A DNA stretch of 64,000 bases from Acidiluteibacter ferrifornacis (GTDB lineage: Bacteria > Bacteroidota > Bacteroidia > Flavobacteriales_E > Vicingaceae). The notes under the pieces are model-generated. The model searched no databases, had not been told where the DNA came from, and was given only the letters and a program-made list of their open reading frames with translations. Below are positions 55,537 through 63,917 of the stretch, piece after piece. The position numbers were made by a program, and so were the translations under genes. The stretch's first letter is position 1. Every line of letters starts with the position of its first letter. The stretch spans positions 167,669-231,668 of the forward strand of contig NZ_WWNE01000007.1 in the NCBI RefSeq assembly GCF_009909615.1, in the 5' to 3' direction.

Positions 55537-56736
55537 ATGCTACTCAAAAAACACATTTCTATCCTTTTTCTGCTAATCGGCTTGAACGGCTTCGCACAGA
55601 ACGACACTATAAAAATTACCAATCGATTGGACTCCAATTCTACGCAATACTTAACCCCGATGGAATATGCTTTTATGTTTCATGAAGATACGCCGTGGAT
55701 GCTGAAAGCTGCTATTAATTCTAGACATAGCTTTTACTTAGCCTTTGAGAAAAGAATTAAGGGTGTGTTTACCGCAAACATTTCTTTAGAATATACTGAC
55801 AACATAGGAATTGCAAACCTCCACCCAATCAATTACTATTTAGGTGCAAGATTGGCTGCAAGATATTACTATAAAATGAAACAACGAAACAAAAATAAAA
55901 ACACTCCCTTTTCTTTATCAGGAAATTACTTTTCTTTAGGATATGATTTATTTAACTTGACGAGGACCAATCAAAATACTAGTAATCATAATATTTTTAT
56001 AAAGTGGGGGATGCAAAGACGCTATTTAAAAAATGGATTTATTGATTTTGGACTTAAAGCTTCTCGCAACATAGGTGATAAAAATTCCAACATTTTTAAT
56101 ATCTCTACTGAAACTTCAATTGGAGTTGCTTTTGCAAAAGATAAATCATCTCTAAACTTTGATAGACTCTGCCCTGTAATTCAATGTCATGAATCTGAAC
56201 GTTCTATTTTTAAATTTAACCTTTCAAATATTCTTTCTTCAACTATTTATAATCATTCTGCTAGTTTTTTTATTAATCCAAACCTAACACATGAATTGAA
56301 GTTGGGTGCCTCTCCATTTTCAATTAACAACACTATTGACATTAGTTTGTATTTAATAGGATTAAATAAAACTTCATTTGGTTATATCAATTATCGCTTT
56401 GAAGAACGATATTACTTCAACTTAAAAAATAGAATCCTTAAAGGTAAAACTGGAAACGGACTTTCAGCAGAGTATCTATCACTTGGATTTAACAATTACT
56501 ACTCCAGTAATTCCTATTTAAGTGCTATTAAGATAGAAAAAGAAAATGGAATGGATAATTTCATTTTCTTACACCCTCAACTTACTATTGGTACTCAGCG
56601 ATTTGTAGGCAAACATTTTTATTACGATATGAGTATTGGTATGGCTTTTCCTAATTTAATTATTAATGCTCCTAGTATATATAATCAATCTGATGCTGAA
56701 CTTATAATCAATAACAAAGTAGGTTTTCGATTTTAA
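55537..56736 (+). CDS. Predicted outer-membrane protein, tandem paralogue 1
   Basis: 399 residues with a signal peptide (MLLKKHISILFLLIGLNGFA). The body is rich in aromatic beta strands ('AARYYYKMKQRNK', 'SGNYFSLGYDLFN'), consistent with an outer-membrane beta barrel; the C-terminus ends 'NNKVGFRF' as in barrel proteins. The first ~70 residues are almost identical to the next gene, while the middle differs strongly. No family is recognised. Confidence 0.7.
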   Translation: MLLKKHISILFLLIGLNGFAQNDTIKITNRLDSNSTQYLTPMEYAFMFHEDTPWMLKAAINSRHSFYLAFEKRIKGVFTANISLEYTDNIGIANLHPINYYLGARLAARYYYKMKQRNKNKNTPFSLSGNYFSLGYDLFNLTRTNQNTSNHNIFIKWGMQRRYLKNGFIDFGLKASRNIGDKNSNIFNISTETSIGVAFAKDKSSLNFDRLCPVIQCHESERSIFKFNLSNILSSTIYNHSASFFINPNLTHELKLGASPFSINNTIDISLYLIGLNKTSFGYINYRFEERYYFNLKNRILKGKTGNGLSAEYLSLGFNNYYSSNSYLSAIKIEKENGMDNFIFLHPQLTIGTQRFVGKHFYYDMSIGMAFPNLIINAPSIYNQSDAELIINNKVGFRF

Positions 56737-56786: not shown

Positions 56787-58079
56787 ATGCTACTCAAAAA
56801 ACACATTTCTATACTATTCCTGCTAATCGGCTTGAACGGTTTTGCACAGAATGATACTATAAAAATAACCAATGGATTGGACTCCAATTCTACCCAATAC
56901 TTAACTCCAATAGAATATGCTTTTATGTTTCATGAAGATACGCCGTGGATGCTGAAAGGAGGAGTGGATTCTAGAGAAAGTCTTTTCTTGGCCTTTGAAA
57001 GAAGAATTAAAGGTGGATTCACTGCAAACTTTTCATTAATGTATGCAAATAGATTACCCTACTCTGGCTACAGTAACGTACTTATTGCCAATATTGCTGC
57101 GAGGTATTATTACAATATGAGACTCCGTAATAAAAGTAGGAACACCCCATTTAATTTATCTGGCAATTACTTTTCTCTGGGTTATGAAATAAAAAATAAC
57201 GGAACTTCAAATGAAAAAATTACAAGAAACAGTATAGAATATATAAATGCCGAAAGAGGACTTAATTCTACCTATTTTCTAAAATGGGGAATGCAACGCC
57301 GTTATTTAAAGAACGGTTTTATTGATGCCGGCATCAAGGCTGCATATAGCTCAAACGGAGATTATTACAACAGCTTTCAATTGCATTCAGAAACCTCTAT
57401 AGGATTAGCATTCGCAAAAGACAAATCATCATTAAATGACAAAAAATTGTGTTCTGTTATTAAGTGTTTTGAATCTGATCGATCTGTTTTTAAATTTAAC
57501 ATTACAGATTTATTTGAATTTCAAACAACAACTGATTACAGTAACTTTTGGCTAAATCCTGAAATTTCTTATGAAGTAAAACTGGGAAAATCACCTTTTT
57601 CAATTAGTAATACAATAAAATCTAGTATAGATTTTTACTTCAACCCTTATAAAAATGATAATGGAAATGTAACGCCGGGGACAGCTCATATTAACCAATC
57701 CGAACCTGATTACCATTATTTGTTAGTAAACATCGGATACTTGTTCGAGACAAGGTATTATTTCAATTTAAAAAATCGAATTCTAAAAGGAAAAACAGGG
57801 AATGGATTATCGGCTGACTATATTTCTTTGGGTGTTTATAACTACTACCAAAACAATGACTACATAAACTATACAAGTTCGGCTTTAAGAGGTGGTGATC
57901 ATTTTAATTTTTTACAACCTCAACTCAACATCGGTACACAACGTTTTGTTGGAGATCGATTCTTTTATGATTTAGGAGCTGGAATCCGATTTACAGATCT
58001 TTTAGATAAAGTTCATCCAAGTAATAATCGATCTGGTGCAGAAGTTCTATTAAGAAGTAAAGTAGGTTTTCGATTTTAG
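56787..58079 (+). CDS. Predicted outer-membrane protein, tandem paralogue 2
   Basis: 430 residues, same signal peptide and the same opening as the preceding gene, ending 'RSKVGFRF'. It has an insertion of about 30 residues near residue 130 ('NNGTSNEKITRNSIEYINAE'). The shared blocks (5' end, 'YYFNLKNRILKGKTGNGLSA', 'LNIGTQRFVG') alternate with diverged ones, as expected of a barrel with variable surface loops. A stable hairpin lies downstream. Confidence 0.7.
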   Translation: MLLKKHISILFLLIGLNGFAQNDTIKITNGLDSNSTQYLTPIEYAFMFHEDTPWMLKGGVDSRESLFLAFERRIKGGFTANFSLMYANRLPYSGYSNVLIANIAARYYYNMRLRNKSRNTPFNLSGNYFSLGYEIKNNGTSNEKITRNSIEYINAERGLNSTYFLKWGMQRRYLKNGFIDAGIKAAYSSNGDYYNSFQLHSETSIGLAFAKDKSSLNDKKLCSVIKCFESDRSVFKFNITDLFEFQTTTDYSNFWLNPEISYEVKLGKSPFSISNTIKSSIDFYFNPYKNDNGNVTPGTAHINQSEPDYHYLLVNIGYLFETRYYFNLKNRILKGKTGNGLSADYISLGVYNYYQNNDYINYTSSALRGGDHFNFLQPQLNIGTQRFVGDRFFYDLGAGIRFTDLLDKVHPSNNRSGAEVLLRSKVGFRF

Positions 58080-58993: not shown

Positions 58994-60394
58994 GTGTATA
59001 CGACCCAAGAAACCATTTGTGCATTAGCTACTCCATCGGGCTCAGGAGCCATAGGAATCATTCGATTATCAGGACCTAAAGCGTATGAAATAGCCAACAC
59101 TATTTTTCACGGAAAAGACCTTACCAAACAAGCCACTCATACCATCCACTTTGGAACAGTAAGAGACGACAATAAAATCATCGATGAAGTATTGGTGAGT
59201 TTATTCAAAGGTCCTAACTCATACACTGGAGAGGATAGTGTTGAAATTTCTTGTCACGGTTCTTCTTTTATTTTAGGAAAAGTGATCGCACTTTGCCTGA
59301 AAAATGGAGCTCGTTTTGCCAAAGCAGGTGAATTTACACAACGAGCATTCGTCAACGGCAAATTAGATTTAGCACAAGCGGAAGCTGTAGCTGATCTGAT
59401 AGCTTCGGAATCAGAAAGTGCTCATGAGTTGGCTATGAATCAAATGCGTGGAGGGTTTTCAGACAAAATCAAAACCTTGCGTGATGAGCTGATTCATTTT
59501 GCCTCTTTGATAGAATTGGAACTTGATTTTGGTGAAGAGGATGTTGAATTTGCGGATCGAGATGATTTGAAAGAGTTAGTTGATCGATTAACTGTTGTTC
59601 TTTATAATTTAATTCAATCTTTCTCTGCAGGAAACGTATTGAAAAACGGCGTTCCTATTGCCATTGTTGGTGAACCCAACGTTGGAAAATCGACTTTATT
59701 GAATGCCATATTAAACGAAGAACGTGCCATTGTATCAGACATAGCCGGAACCACTCGTGACGCCATAGAAGATGAAGTAAATTTGGGCGGTATAATTTTC
59801 CGATTTATTGATACTGCAGGACTTCGTGAAACCACAGACGTGGTAGAAAATATAGGAATTACTAAAACCTACCAAAAAGTAGATCAAGCTACCGTGATAC
59901 TATATTTGGTTGATGCGAAGAAGAGTACCAAAGAAGAAATTCAGAAAACTGTTGCGACTATTCAAGCGCGAATTGTGGACACCAACAAGCGACTAATCGT
60001 TGTTGCCAATAAATTAGAAAATGAGCTGAATGATAAGAAAGAAGTTCCGACGGCTATTCTAGACAAGTTTGAAGGATTGGATGAAGTCCATTATTTATCA
60101 GCATTGCAAAAAACAAATGTTGAAGAGTTATGCGCCCATCTAGTGGAATTGGTGAAAAGCAATATCGTATCCAACAGCGATGTTACCGTGAGTAACTACC
60201 GCCACTATGAAGCGCTTTCTAAAGCTTATGAAGCATTAATGAAAGTAACCGAAGGCTTGGCAGTCAACATTACTGGAGACTTCTTGGCCATGGACATTCG
60301 TCAATCGCTGCATTACTTAGGGGAGATTACTGGTGAAATTACCACCGATGATTTGTTGGGTAATATCTTTAGTAAGTTTTGTATCGGAAAGTGA
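58994..60394 (+). CDS. mnmE: tRNA uridine-5-carboxymethylaminomethyl modification GTPase MnmE
   Basis: 466 residues, GTG start at 58994 (N-terminus MYTTQETICALATPSGSGA). The N-terminal folate-binding domain is followed by a G domain with 'GEPNVGKSTLLNAI', 'DIAGTTRDAIEDEV' and 'DTAGLRET', and the C-terminal helical domain ends with the invariant 'FCIGK'. With GidA/MnmG it modifies U34 of tRNA. The gene is intact although an integrative element begins at its 3' end, which implies that the integration duplicates or preserves its last codons. Confidence 0.96.
   Translation: MYTTQETICALATPSGSGAIGIIRLSGPKAYEIANTIFHGKDLTKQATHTIHFGTVRDDNKIIDEVLVSLFKGPNSYTGEDSVEISCHGSSFILGKVIALCLKNGARFAKAGEFTQRAFVNGKLDLAQAEAVADLIASESESAHELAMNQMRGGFSDKIKTLRDELIHFASLIELELDFGEEDVEFADRDDLKELVDRLTVVLYNLIQSFSAGNVLKNGVPIAIVGEPNVGKSTLLNAILNEERAIVSDIAGTTRDAIEDEVNLGGIIFRFIDTAGLRETTDVVENIGITKTYQKVDQATVILYLVDAKKSTKEEIQKTVATIQARIVDTNKRLIVVANKLENELNDKKEVPTAILDKFEGLDEVHYLSALQKTNVEELCAHLVELVKSNIVSNSDVTVSNYRHYEALSKAYEALMKVTEGLAVNITGDFLAMDIRQSLHYLGEITGEITTDDLLGNIFSKFCIGK
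60377..60394 (+). other. Candidate attachment site (left end of an integrative element)
   Basis: The last 18 bp of mnmE, TTTTGTATCGGAAAGTGA, encode the invariant FCIGK and stop. The corresponding 18 bp of trmE/mnmE are the integration target of SGI1-type islands in Gammaproteobacteria. A tyrosine integrase operon starts about 240 bp downstream, so this stretch is the likely attL. The matching attR copy would be outside the window. Confidence 0.55.
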
Positions 60395-60462: not shown

Positions 60463-60511
60463 GTTACTGATTTGCCTATTTTTTCGTATCTTTCGTTACT
60501 AATTTGTTACT
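60463..60511 (+). repeat. GTTACT direct repeats near the att site
   Basis: GTTACTGA at 60463, GTTACTAA at 60495 and GTTACTAA at 60506 are direct copies, spaced 32 and 11 bp apart. They lie between the mnmE 3' end and the recombination genes, the normal place for arm-type integrase binding sites. Confidence 0.45.
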
Positions 60512-60576
60512 AAGAACACCATTTTTGTTTCTAGCAACAGATTAGAAGTATCAAGGGGGAGATTATGTTACATGCA

Positions 60577-60612
60577 GATACATTCTGATACATAGCGATA
60601 CACCCTGATACA
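60577..60612 (+). repeat. Four GATACA iterons in exact 10-bp phase
   Basis: GATACA starts at 60577, 60587, 60597 and 60607, exactly one helical turn apart, and the array ends 21 bp before the start of the excisionase-like gene. Such phased repeats are typical of sites for cooperative binding of small HTH proteins, here possibly the adjacent Xis-like protein. Confidence 0.75.
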
Positions 60613-60633: not shown

Positions 60634-60987
60634 ATGAGTAGCAATCTTCGTATTCCAAAAATCTGTCAGGATTGTGGTAGCGATTTTATCGCCAAAACCA
60701 CCGTTACTCAATATTGCAGTGACAGATGTGCTAAGCGAGCTTACAAGAAGCGCAAGCGCAAACAGAAGGTTGAAGCTGTTCCCACCCTTTCTCAGCAAAA
60801 GGTCAATCACTCCAAAGAGATAGTTGGCGACAAGGAATTTCTAAGCATTAAAGAAACCTGTCAGCTATTAGGCACAAGCAGAATGACAATATACCGCCAG
60901 ATCAAGAGCGGGACAATCCCTGCGGCCAAGGTTGGAGCCCGTACCATTATTAAGAGAACCGATATTGAAAAACTGTTTACAGCATGA
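60634..60987 (+). CDS. Excisionase-like protein with zinc ribbon and MerR-type HTH
   Basis: 117 residues. The N-terminus carries a CxxC...C...C set ('CQDCGSDFIAKTTVTQYC' then 'DRCAK'), followed by a basic stretch and an HTH_17 domain at residues ~68-117 ('FLSIKETCQLLGTSRMTIYR', 'IKRTDIEKLF'). It overlaps the integrase gene by 4 bp, so they are cotranslated. The likely role is a recombination directionality factor or regulator of the element; the zinc ribbon may add DNA binding. Confidence 0.82.
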   Translation: MSSNLRIPKICQDCGSDFIAKTTVTQYCSDRCAKRAYKKRKRKQKVEAVPTLSQQKVNHSKEIVGDKEFLSIKETCQLLGTSRMTIYRQIKSGTIPAAKVGARTIIKRTDIEKLFTA

Positions 60988-62078
60988 AAGTAACATTGAG
61001 AGAACGCCACCAGGGCGGCAAGATCAGCCTATACCTTGACTACTACCATAAGGGCAAACGCAAAGCTGAGTATCTGAAACTATACATTGAGCCTAACCCG
61101 AAAAGCAAAGCTGAAAGGGAACTCAACAAAAAGACTATGCAGCTTGCAGAATCAATCCGGGCTAAACGCCTGATTGAAATTCAAAACGGTGTGTATGGCT
61201 TCAGAGACAATGAAAAGCTTAAAAGCAGTTTCCTAGAGTACATTCAACTCTTAACCAACAAGCGGCACAGCAGCAAAGGCAACTACGGGAATTGGGACAG
61301 TATGCTCAAACACTTGAAAGGCTACATTCCTTATGACAAGACCTTTGAAGAAATAGACCGACAGTTTGTAATGGGTTTCAAGGAATATCTTGACCATGAT
61401 GCTAAGAAGTCAAGCGGTCAACCGCTTTCCCAAAATTCAAAGTACTCCTACTTCAACAAGCTAAGAACAGCACTCAAACAAGCAGTTAAAGACGGTATCA
61501 TTCCAAGCAATCCAAGTGAAGGAGTTGAAGCATTTAAGCAAGGCGAACCTCAGCGAGAGTTTCTAACCTTAGAAGAATTACAATCTGCAGCACAAGCGGA
61601 ATGTGAAATTCCTGCGATTAAGACAGCCTTTTTATTCTCCACTCTTACAGGTTTAAGATGGTCCGATATTCAGAAGCTACTTTGGTCAGAAGTACAGCAT
61701 TCAAATGATATGGGCTACTATATTCGATTCAGACAGCAAAAGACTAAAGGAGCAGAAACCTTACCCATTTCAGAACAAGCCGTTGGCTTGCTCGGTGAAA
61801 GACAAGACAAAGACGAACGAGTATTCAAAGGATTGAAATACTCCTCTTGGCACAATGTGAAGTTGCAGCAATGGATGATGAGAGCAGGAATCAGCAAGAC
61901 CATTTCATTTCACTGTGCGAGACATACCTACGCTACTTTACAGCTTTCAGCAGGTACAGATATTTACACAGTTTCAAAGCTCTTAGGTCATAGAGAACTG
62001 AAAACCACCCAGATTTATGCCAAAATCATTGACGACAAGAAGAAAGAAGCTGCGAACAAAATCAAATTAGACCTATGA
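60984..62078 (+). CDS. Tyrosine recombinase/integrase of the element
   Basis: 364 residues. Catalytic residues are seen in order: Arg in 'STLTGLRWSDIQKL', Lys in 'RQQKTKGAETLPIS', 'HCARHTYATLQL' (HxxR), His in 'KLLGHRELKTTQIYAKI' and the Tyr in 'QIYAKI'. The N-terminal arm-binding and core-binding SAM-like domains precede. It is 590 bp from the 3' end of mnmE, its likely target. It overlaps both neighbours by 4 bp, forming one operon with the excisionase-like gene and the following orphan. Confidence 0.93.
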   Translation: MKVTLRERHQGGKISLYLDYYHKGKRKAEYLKLYIEPNPKSKAERELNKKTMQLAESIRAKRLIEIQNGVYGFRDNEKLKSSFLEYIQLLTNKRHSSKGNYGNWDSMLKHLKGYIPYDKTFEEIDRQFVMGFKEYLDHDAKKSSGQPLSQNSKYSYFNKLRTALKQAVKDGIIPSNPSEGVEAFKQGEPQREFLTLEELQSAAQAECEIPAIKTAFLFSTLTGLRWSDIQKLLWSEVQHSNDMGYYIRFRQQKTKGAETLPISEQAVGLLGERQDKDERVFKGLKYSSWHNVKLQQWMMRAGISKTISFHCARHTYATLQLSAGTDIYTVSKLLGHRELKTTQIYAKIIDDKKKEAANKIKLDL

Positions 62079-63129: not shown

Positions 63130-63234
63130 TGGTAAAGTCGCTCGATTTTACCAATACAAATTACCACTTCATTTCATAACATTCTGTTATTCAATGGTTT
63201 TTGCTGTGTCAAATTACCATTGAGCACCTTACCA
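63130..63234 (+). repeat. TTACCA repeats before the twin HTH genes
   Basis: TTACCA occurs at 63148, 63161, 63214 and 63229, with an inverted copy TGGTAA at 63130. They precede the first of two HTH genes at 63325. A possible operator or recombination-protein site; spacing is irregular. Confidence 0.4.
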
Positions 63235-63324
63235 TTTGCCTTTATTTTCCTTTGGTCTTGTCAACGGAAATCGTTGGTGACTTTAGCGCTGAAGTCTTTT
63301 TCAAATTTTCAAAATCCAATAAAA

Positions 63325-63624
63325 ATGGAAGAGATTTTAAAAAGACTAGAAATAATAGAAAAACACGTATTAGACCAAAATCTAATACTAAAGAATGTGC
63401 TCAATTTTAATGAAGCTGCAAAGTTCATTGAAGTATCGCATTCGCACCTGTACAAGCTCACCAGCTCGGGTAAAGTGCCATTCTATAAACCGAATGGCAA
63501 GAAGATCTACTTCAACCGACAAGAGCTAGAAGAATGGTTGCTACGCAACAGAAATGAAACGGACGCTGAGATAGACCAAAGAGCAGCAGATTATCTAATC
63601 AAAAAAGGGAGAGTGAAGCTATGA
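63325..63624 (+). CDS. HTH (MerR/excisionase-type) DNA-binding protein 1
   Basis: The preferred start is ATG at 63325, giving 99 residues (MEEILKRLEIIEKHVLDQNL); the longer frame starting upstream runs through the repeat region and is less likely. A coiled-coil N-terminus precedes an HTH_17 domain with 'FNEAAKFIEVSHSHLYKLTS' and 'GKKIYFNRQELEEWL'. Its stop overlaps the second HTH gene (ATGA). Tandem HTH genes of this kind are known as excision factors in CTnDOT-type elements. Confidence 0.8.
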   Translation: MEEILKRLEIIEKHVLDQNLILKNVLNFNEAAKFIEVSHSHLYKLTSSGKVPFYKPNGKKIYFNRQELEEWLLRNRNETDAEIDQRAADYLIKKGRVKL

Positions 63625-63917
63625 GTGAGTTGATAGACATGATCCTGAAGCTCTCTCAGGAAATCAAATGGATTAGAGCCTACTTAGGTCAATTTCAGAA
63701 GAGCCAATTGGAGCATTTCAAAGATGCTTGGATTGATGGACAAGATGTAATGATGGCTTTGCATATCAGCAAGCGCACACTACAGACTTTGCGTGACAAT
63801 GGAACACTGCCATACAGCCGAATCAATGGCAAGTTCTACTACAAGGTTTCTGACTTAGAGAAACTACTTGAATCCAATTACTCAACCTTTAAAAGCAAGA
63901 GCCATGGAAATAAGTAG
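63621..63917 (+). CDS. HTH (MerR/excisionase-type) DNA-binding protein 2
   Basis: 98 residues with an HTH_17-type domain ('QDVMMALHISKRTLQTLRDN', 'INGKFYYKVSDLEKLL'). It overlaps the preceding HTH gene by 4 bp, and the truncated ORF beginning at 63904 overlaps its end by 14 bp. Compared with the first protein it shares architecture but little exact sequence, so the two are old duplicates or independent members. Likely part of the element's excision or transfer control. Confidence 0.8.
   Translation: MSELIDMILKLSQEIKWIRAYLGQFQKSQLEHFKDAWIDGQDVMMALHISKRTLQTLRDNGTLPYSRINGKFYYKVSDLEKLLESNYSTFKSKSHGNK

Follow-up and report, generated by a model that had tools for sequence, protein, structure and literature searches.

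A 10-bp phased GNNACA array before an excisionase-like gene in a Bacteroidota mobile element: a probable operator of the adjacent XisL protein

The described systems closest to the locus studied here are BldC of Streptomyces and RdfS of ICEMlSym-R7A. BldC is a 68-residue developmental regulator reported to line up head to tail on direct repeats; at the smeA-sffA promoter, its protected tracts are one helical turn apart (PMC5859096). The same study describes 9-bp repeats at the whiI site with an AT-rich portion that is read indirectly, and assigns the major-groove base contacts to Lys26 and Arg30 of the recognition helix (PMC5859096). RdfS is reported to bind its own promoter as well as attP and to form filaments in crystals, and no consensus motif was found for it (PMC11963761). 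Here we describe an array of direct repeats in exact 10-bp steps that precedes xisL, a gene for an excisionase-like protein (XisL), and a tyrosine integrase gene (int) in an element inserted at mnmE in Acidiluteibacter ferrifornacis. The window, as used below, is the whole stretch of 64,000 nucleotides that was analysed (contig NZ_WWNE01000007.1, positions 167,669 to 231,668). We read the array as the operator of the XisL protein encoded downstream of it, a reading to which we give a probability of roughly 0.7. The central features are:

60567 to 60612, plus strand: array of five phased units with a 10-bp step (GTTACA at 60567; GATACA at 60577, 60587, 60597 and 60607), from the sequence, pattern searches and shuffles.
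60634 to 60987, plus strand: xisL, with a zinc-ribbon-like N-terminus and a MerR/Xis-like winged helix (HTH_17).
60984 to 62078, plus strand: tyrosine integrase gene (Arm-DNA-bind_5, Phage_int_SAM_5, Phage_integrase), sharing its first 4 bases with the end of xisL.

A direct sequence check found all four GATACA copies at the starts listed by the original prediction, and extended the array by a fifth unit, GTTACA, which has one mismatch to GATACA and keeps the exact 10-bp step. The array starts ~172 bp past the mnmE stop and ends 21 bp before xisL. A pattern of three units in the 10-bp register, allowing up to 3 mismatches, matched the window 3 times, every time within the array, against a mean of 0.08 and a maximum of 1 in dinucleotide shuffles (0 of 100 reached the observed 3). 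With up to 2 mismatches allowed, the pattern of three units gave 3 overlapping matches in the genome (3,516,632 bases), all at this array; no second phased array was found by this pattern in the 3.5 Mb, and a reversed control pattern of three units gave 0 matches in the same 3,516,632 bases.

The downstream gene had been called excisionase-like in the original prediction, and profile searches agree. Its product of 117 amino acids matches PF12728 (HTH_17) with 53 bits (cut-off 27) and the excisionase domain of NCBIfam TIGR01764 with 47.2 bits (cut-off 28.8). The zinc-ribbon-like N-terminus contains C11, C14, C28 and C32, and this part gave a weak match to YacG alone (Z 4.2). Helix 83-92 of the structural model (mean predicted local distance difference test score 81.6) is the predicted recognition helix, and residue 84 is close to its start. 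The best fold match was to Xis of phage Pukovnik (Z 8.2, 52 residues, root-mean-square deviation 1.2), followed by BldC-DNA (Z 8.0 and 7.8), RdfS (6.7), the GIsul2 excisionase (6.5), Tn916 Xis (6.1), the lambda Xis filament (5.6) and a phage P2 DNA-binding protein (5.5), which we take to be Cox. By profile and fold, XisL belongs to the HTH_17 excisionase family, and it may function as an excisionase. From the aligned ranges, residue 84 would correspond to Lys26 of BldC, and R88 stands at the place equivalent to BldC Arg30.

Relatives of XisL were sought in genome samples. At E <= 0.001, 65 of 395 genomes gave a match, many of these being short one-domain matches; at E <= 1e-12, matches came from 56 of 397, 44 of 394 and 68 of 374 genomes in three samples. 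Plasmid and phage records yielded 3 relatives each, while in viral contigs 8 stretches matched a pattern and 0 were confirmed as a relative, and a last draw of 5 genomes from the order of G828 gave nothing new. Loci in which XisL reaches model position 100 or beyond numbered 145 (7 were dropped as short); 144 of these entered a motif-free test of self-similarity upstream of xisL and were reduced to 71 non-redundant Bacteroidota loci. At lag 10, 49 of the 71 were significant at p <= 0.01 against dinucleotide shuffles, a count to be read in the light of locus L101, where the best stretch is a T-rich run, so that significance need not mean an array. The control lags 7, 8, 9, 11, 12, 13 and 14 gave 3, 1, 0, 11, 0, 3 and 0 loci, respectively. 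Array words among the loci include GATACA, GCTACA, GACACA, GAAACA, GTTGAC, GGTACG and GGCACA, and the integrases beside array-bearing xisL genes (50 loci) go down to 33% identity with that of the window. The array thus recurs before homologous xisL genes with diverged spacers and words, the opposite of the absence from homologous elements that the original prediction had named as evidence against itself.

Some single loci are worth recording. At L149 a near-perfect tandem array of GCACCACCAA units stands before the xisL gene (lag-10 identity 0.97). In the three plasmid loci, L116 to L118, the gene next to xisL carries the annotation of a site-specific integrase. L116 (NZ_OY725936.1, Bacteroides finegoldii 'plasmid 34') has mnmE directly before the xisL-int pair and a GGTACG array; this plasmid-labelled record could represent part of a chromosome, or else an element that carried mnmE along.

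Relatives of the integrase occupy 53 loci, 47 of them with a match to mnmE (the others being L030, L033, L044, L049, L054 and L056). XisL was unmatched in 11 of the 53. Three of these (L030, L049 and L054) begin at a contig end that falls within the integrase; in L056 the integrase match is partial. The remaining seven (L007, L008, L009, L014, L031, L051 and L052), partly non-independent as the first four are much alike, have mnmE and a related integrase (54-84% identical). Here int directly follows the arm and there is no array; lag 10 was significant at p <= 0.01 in 0 of 7 and at p < 0.05 in 1 of 7. GTTGC arm-type repeats persist in five of the seven; L051 and L052 lack GTTGC and carry a single GTTAC apiece. 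Where XisL is present at mnmE, ~210-245 bp separate mnmE from xisL. The original prediction had suggested looking for the array upstream of homologous integrases: it recurs there together with xisL and is absent from the seven loci that have a related integrase and no XisL. The array is therefore linked to xisL rather than to int.

The word of the repeat was compared with the columns of the XisL alignment. Of the 145 loci, 87 have two or more units with AC at positions 4-5, a filter that leaves out most GCACCA-type arrays of W84 proteins; reduced to 66, these loci formed the association set. Within these 66 loci, M84 goes with T at base 3 (19/19), R84 with C at base 3 (21/22) and W84 with C at base 2 (12/13), while T84 and S84 each go with A at base 3 in 2 of 3. 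With alignment columns having gaps in more than 30% of rows skipped, for XisL and integrase alike, column 84 ranked first among the tested XisL columns for both bases at three redundancy cuts (n = 66, 45 and 35). The excess mutual information with base 3 was 0.85, 0.69 and 0.73 at the three cuts, against 0.53, 0.34 and 0.27 for the next XisL column; the corresponding values for base 2 were 0.60, 0.52 and 0.63 against 0.49, 0.34 and 0.47. Column 84 also stood above every tested column of the integrase (358-362 columns), a comparison made on the 50 of 66 loci with the integrase covered over more than 200 amino acids, and at cuts of n = 50, 31 and 23. There, column 84 and the best integrase column reached 1.02/0.81, 0.94/0.63 and 0.79/0.68 for base 3 and 0.71/0.58, 0.69/0.51 and 0.75/0.53 for base 2.

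The residue-84 rule was framed after viewing the arrays; the ranking over all columns and a set of new loci serve as checks. Of 28 new loci, 26 with an unseen protein, the rule was applicable to 15, with 12 right and 3 wrong (L218, L221 and L223). At L218 and L221 the detector had picked GGTACAAATT TGTACC, probably an inverted repeat, and both are still counted as misses. Relatedness among loci inflates the co-variation of residue and word. On the best tree, which rests on few columns, R84 requires 8 changes, of which starred branches force 3 or more, and W84 requires 4, of which they force 2 or more; in independent pairs, the mean number changing the same way was 1.8 (R84) and 1.7 (W84) and the mean opposite was 0.0. 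Because the repeat word co-varies with a residue of the predicted recognition helix, XisL is supported as the reader of the array, and we regard it as quite probable that it does read it. The original prediction, a cooperative stack of the Xis type or autoregulation of the operon, is supported in part, by this co-variation and by the array tracking xisL and not int.

To place the array within the element, the region between mnmE and xisL was annotated as follows.

58994 to 60394, plus strand: mnmE, host gene with the element inserted in its 3' end, from the open reading frame (ORF) list; matched in 41 of 41 genomes searched.
60377 to 60394, plus strand: left attachment core TTTTGTATCGGAAAGTGA in the 3' end of mnmE; the right copy, with 2 mismatches, is at G000:C20:262566-262583, beyond the window.
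60463 to 60474, plus strand: putative integrase arm site GTTACTGATTTG; the element carries an identical 12-mer within its right end.
60487 to 60495, plus strand: -7-box-like promoter element TATCTTTCG (TAnnTTT), 70 bp before the block preceding the array.
60495 to 60500 and 60506 to 60511, plus strand: two more putative arm sites, GTTACT, 11 bp apart.
60557 to 60566, plus strand: block GNGA[A/G]A...T, here GGGAGATTAT, one period before unit 1; it resembles a ribosome-binding site and is the first unit listed in many arrays.
60565 to 60588, plus strand: possible leader ORF MLHADTF*, its start codon overlapping unit 1, from the block-plus-NTG pattern.

The right core copy lies 34.5 kb downstream of the left core, giving an element of ~34.5 kb. 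DNA past the right core matches DNA past mnmE in the relative G002 (blocks of 1369 bp at 67% and 594 bp at 65% identity), and for this reason we place the left 3.6 kb of the element in the window. Synteny support for the right end comes from G002 alone; in the relative G001 the DNA past the right core had no blast match within the 4.1-kb stretch taken. A tRNA as insertion target was looked for, and the window contains none.

TAnnTTTG is a promoter consensus of Bacteroidota. In the M, W and R classes, at loci where both were found, a TAnnTTT box lies 59-70 bp before the block preceding the array. As the array follows this box at a similar place across classes, it would sit inside the predicted leader of xisL-int. 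Scans for sigma-70 promoters and terminators found nothing, such scans not being informative for Bacteroidota. Leaders were collected with a pattern that fixes block positions 1, 3, 4, 6 and 10, the following G, A or G at position 5 and the TG of NTG; in the 51 distinct leaders that fit (non-fitting ones are uncounted), the free first letter of NTG was A in 44, T in 4, G in 2 and C in 1. An in-frame extension of XisL from an upstream ATG was also considered and rejected, as a TGA intervenes in the window and frame and length differ between loci.

Several other explanations of the array have to be weighed against an operator of XisL. Chance, which the original prediction had already thought very unlikely, is rejected as the origin on the grounds of the shuffles, the single site in the genome and the recurrence at lag 10. 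A tandem duplication inherited without function would fit the fact that much sequence is common to close relatives, but the 10-bp spacing persists in the 49 loci while word and spacers diverge, and this, together with the shuffles, leaves a functionless origin of either kind with hardly any probability. The units could instead be arm-type sites of the integrase, which can be arranged in 10-bp steps: the integrase has an arm-binding domain (PF17293), the array sits in the int-side arm, and GTTACA, the first of the units, is similar to the GTTACT repeats close by. Arm-type sites should be present on arms that go with this integrase family, yet the array is absent both from the seven XisL-less loci and from the right end of the element, which on reading holds a single GTTACTGATTTG; nor does the genome hold a second array. 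The arm repeats themselves do not track the class of array, with GTTGC or GTTAC repeats found in XisL-less loci as well as in classes M, W and R. Because those seven loci lack the array and the integrase columns co-vary with it less strongly than residue 84, we regard integrase arm sites as an improbable explanation.

The array could also be a true excisionase site, which sets the direction of recombination by bending the arm for excision and has little to do with regulation. The fold of XisL resembles Xis, RdfS and a P2 protein, the array is located in the left arm, and RdfS is reported to bind attP as well as its own promoter (PMC11963761). Against this, the array lies beyond the putative arm sites and not between core and arm, and it is downstream of the predicted promoter; such a role on its own seems unlikely. 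Finally, the element could act as RNA, with either the short leader ORF overlapping unit 1 or the repeated GAUACA in the mRNA controlling translation of xisL. We retain this rival because of the start-codon-like triplet, for which the prevalence of A at the free NTG letter speaks, and the leader folds better than its shuffles (z -3.0; 1 of 200 as good). However, the upstream inverted arm repeat forms part of the predicted fold, the leader has no Rfam match, the frame and length of the ORF vary among loci, and the repeat word follows a residue of the winged helix, a DNA-binding fold. Moreover, since the short ORF ends before the 10-bp units do, the array is no by-product of a leader peptide. 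A purely RNA-acting element is thus about as improbable as integrase arm sites, and RNA-level control may come on top of the array.

Returning to XisL and its operator, a number of observations weigh against this reading. The independent pairs on starred branches are few, 3 for R84 and 2 for W84, and not significant. Lag 10 fell short of p <= 0.01 in 22 of the 71 XisL loci, and the sign of an array was absent in the XisL loci L094, L098, L099, L104 and L121. Most of the fold matches have Z below 8, a range in which the tool warns of common arrangements. The position of the array, ~172 bp past the mnmE stop and outside the arm sites, is unusual for a classical excisionase site, and the start-codon-like triplet at unit 1 leaves room for a role at the RNA level. 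In addition, the presence of an array showed no association with arginine or lysine at residue 88: it was seen in 42 of the 60 loci that have one of these residues there and in 7 of the 11 that do not (p = 0.73). The idea that residue 88 reads the constant C, as Arg30 does in BldC, found no support in this test.

Altogether, we propose that one XisL winged helix would occupy each 10-bp unit, made up of the GNNACA consensus and four variable bases, and that the protomers would follow one another head to tail along a single helix face, as in the filaments of BldC, RdfS and Xis/Cox. By analogy with these structural relatives, such cooperative stacking on the array is probable. Bases 2 and 3 of the unit would be set by residue 84, which stands early in the predicted recognition helix. 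The stack in the leader would then hinder transcription or translation of xisL-int and so provide feedback. Since the array is in the predicted leader, ~60-70 bp after the promoter-like box and farther in than the putative arm sites, feedback control is its most likely main job, and on position we put autoregulation of xisL-int at somewhat better than even odds. The array might make an added contribution to excision; a direct part in it, of the kind played by lambda Xis, is doubtful because the array is outside the putative integrase arm sites. More speculative is a family-wide code, in which residue 84 would set the protein's own operator word (M GA/TTAC; W GCNAC; R GNCAC; T/S GAAAC), so that each filament forms on its own leader alone, co-resident elements are insulated, the start of the leader ORF is covered and both transcription and translation of xis-int are gated.

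Other genes of the element and its surroundings are given here for completeness. Two further HTH_17 genes lie just downstream in the element (window 63220-63624 and 63621-63917), the first also with an excisionase-domain match. To the right of the window, a cargo run on one strand (L057:7397-15831, G000:C20:234796-243230) encodes a type III methyltransferase, a BRO-N protein, a type III restriction enzyme, a RhuM-family protein and a 688-amino-acid Piwi protein, the last being a PADLOC pAgo match (E 1.9e-262). Element genes at L058:7-7065 resemble, as read from their translations, heavy-metal efflux functions: an RND-type pump, an outer-membrane efflux protein, a P-type ATPase and an adaptor. 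In the window, 55537-56736 and 56787-58079 encode tandem paralogous proteins with nearly identical signal-peptide-like N-terminal stretches.

The choice of DNA by filaments of the Xis/BldC type has been hard to read so far, with no consensus motif found for RdfS (PMC11963761). The loci described here offer natural variation in both proteins and arrays, with the DNA word and a single protein residue varying together, and they lead to a direct prediction, namely that a change at residue 84 would change the preferred word. The phased array is also a simple signature for locating such elements and their control regions. We found no earlier description of an exact 10-bp GNNACA array with a residue-84 rule in Bacteroidota elements, in a literature search that reached few subscription papers.

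In comparison with known systems, XisL is like BldC in the common fold (Z 8.0), and the direct repeats of BldC sites have their counterpart in the 10-bp direct repeats of the array that XisL would bind. XisL differs from BldC in its zinc-ribbon-like N-terminus, in the exact 10-bp step of the array that it would read and in a word that varies with residue 84. RdfS resembles XisL as a winged helix of the HTH_17 type that is paired with an integrase, with a fold match of Z 6.7; unlike RdfS, the XisL system has a plain repeated word. The phage P2 protein, presumably Cox, is like XisL in fold (Z 5.5), and to our knowledge neither P2 Cox nor Apl of phage 186, both regulators as well as excisionases, has a zinc ribbon. 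Orf2x of the Bacteroides mobilizable element NBU1 is reported to act with IntN1 at attachment-site DNA. In conclusion, the proposed working mode of XisL would be that of the known winged-helix proteins that bind direct repeats, and what appears to be new, in the literature searched, is the exact 10-bp GNNACA array together with the residue-84 rule.
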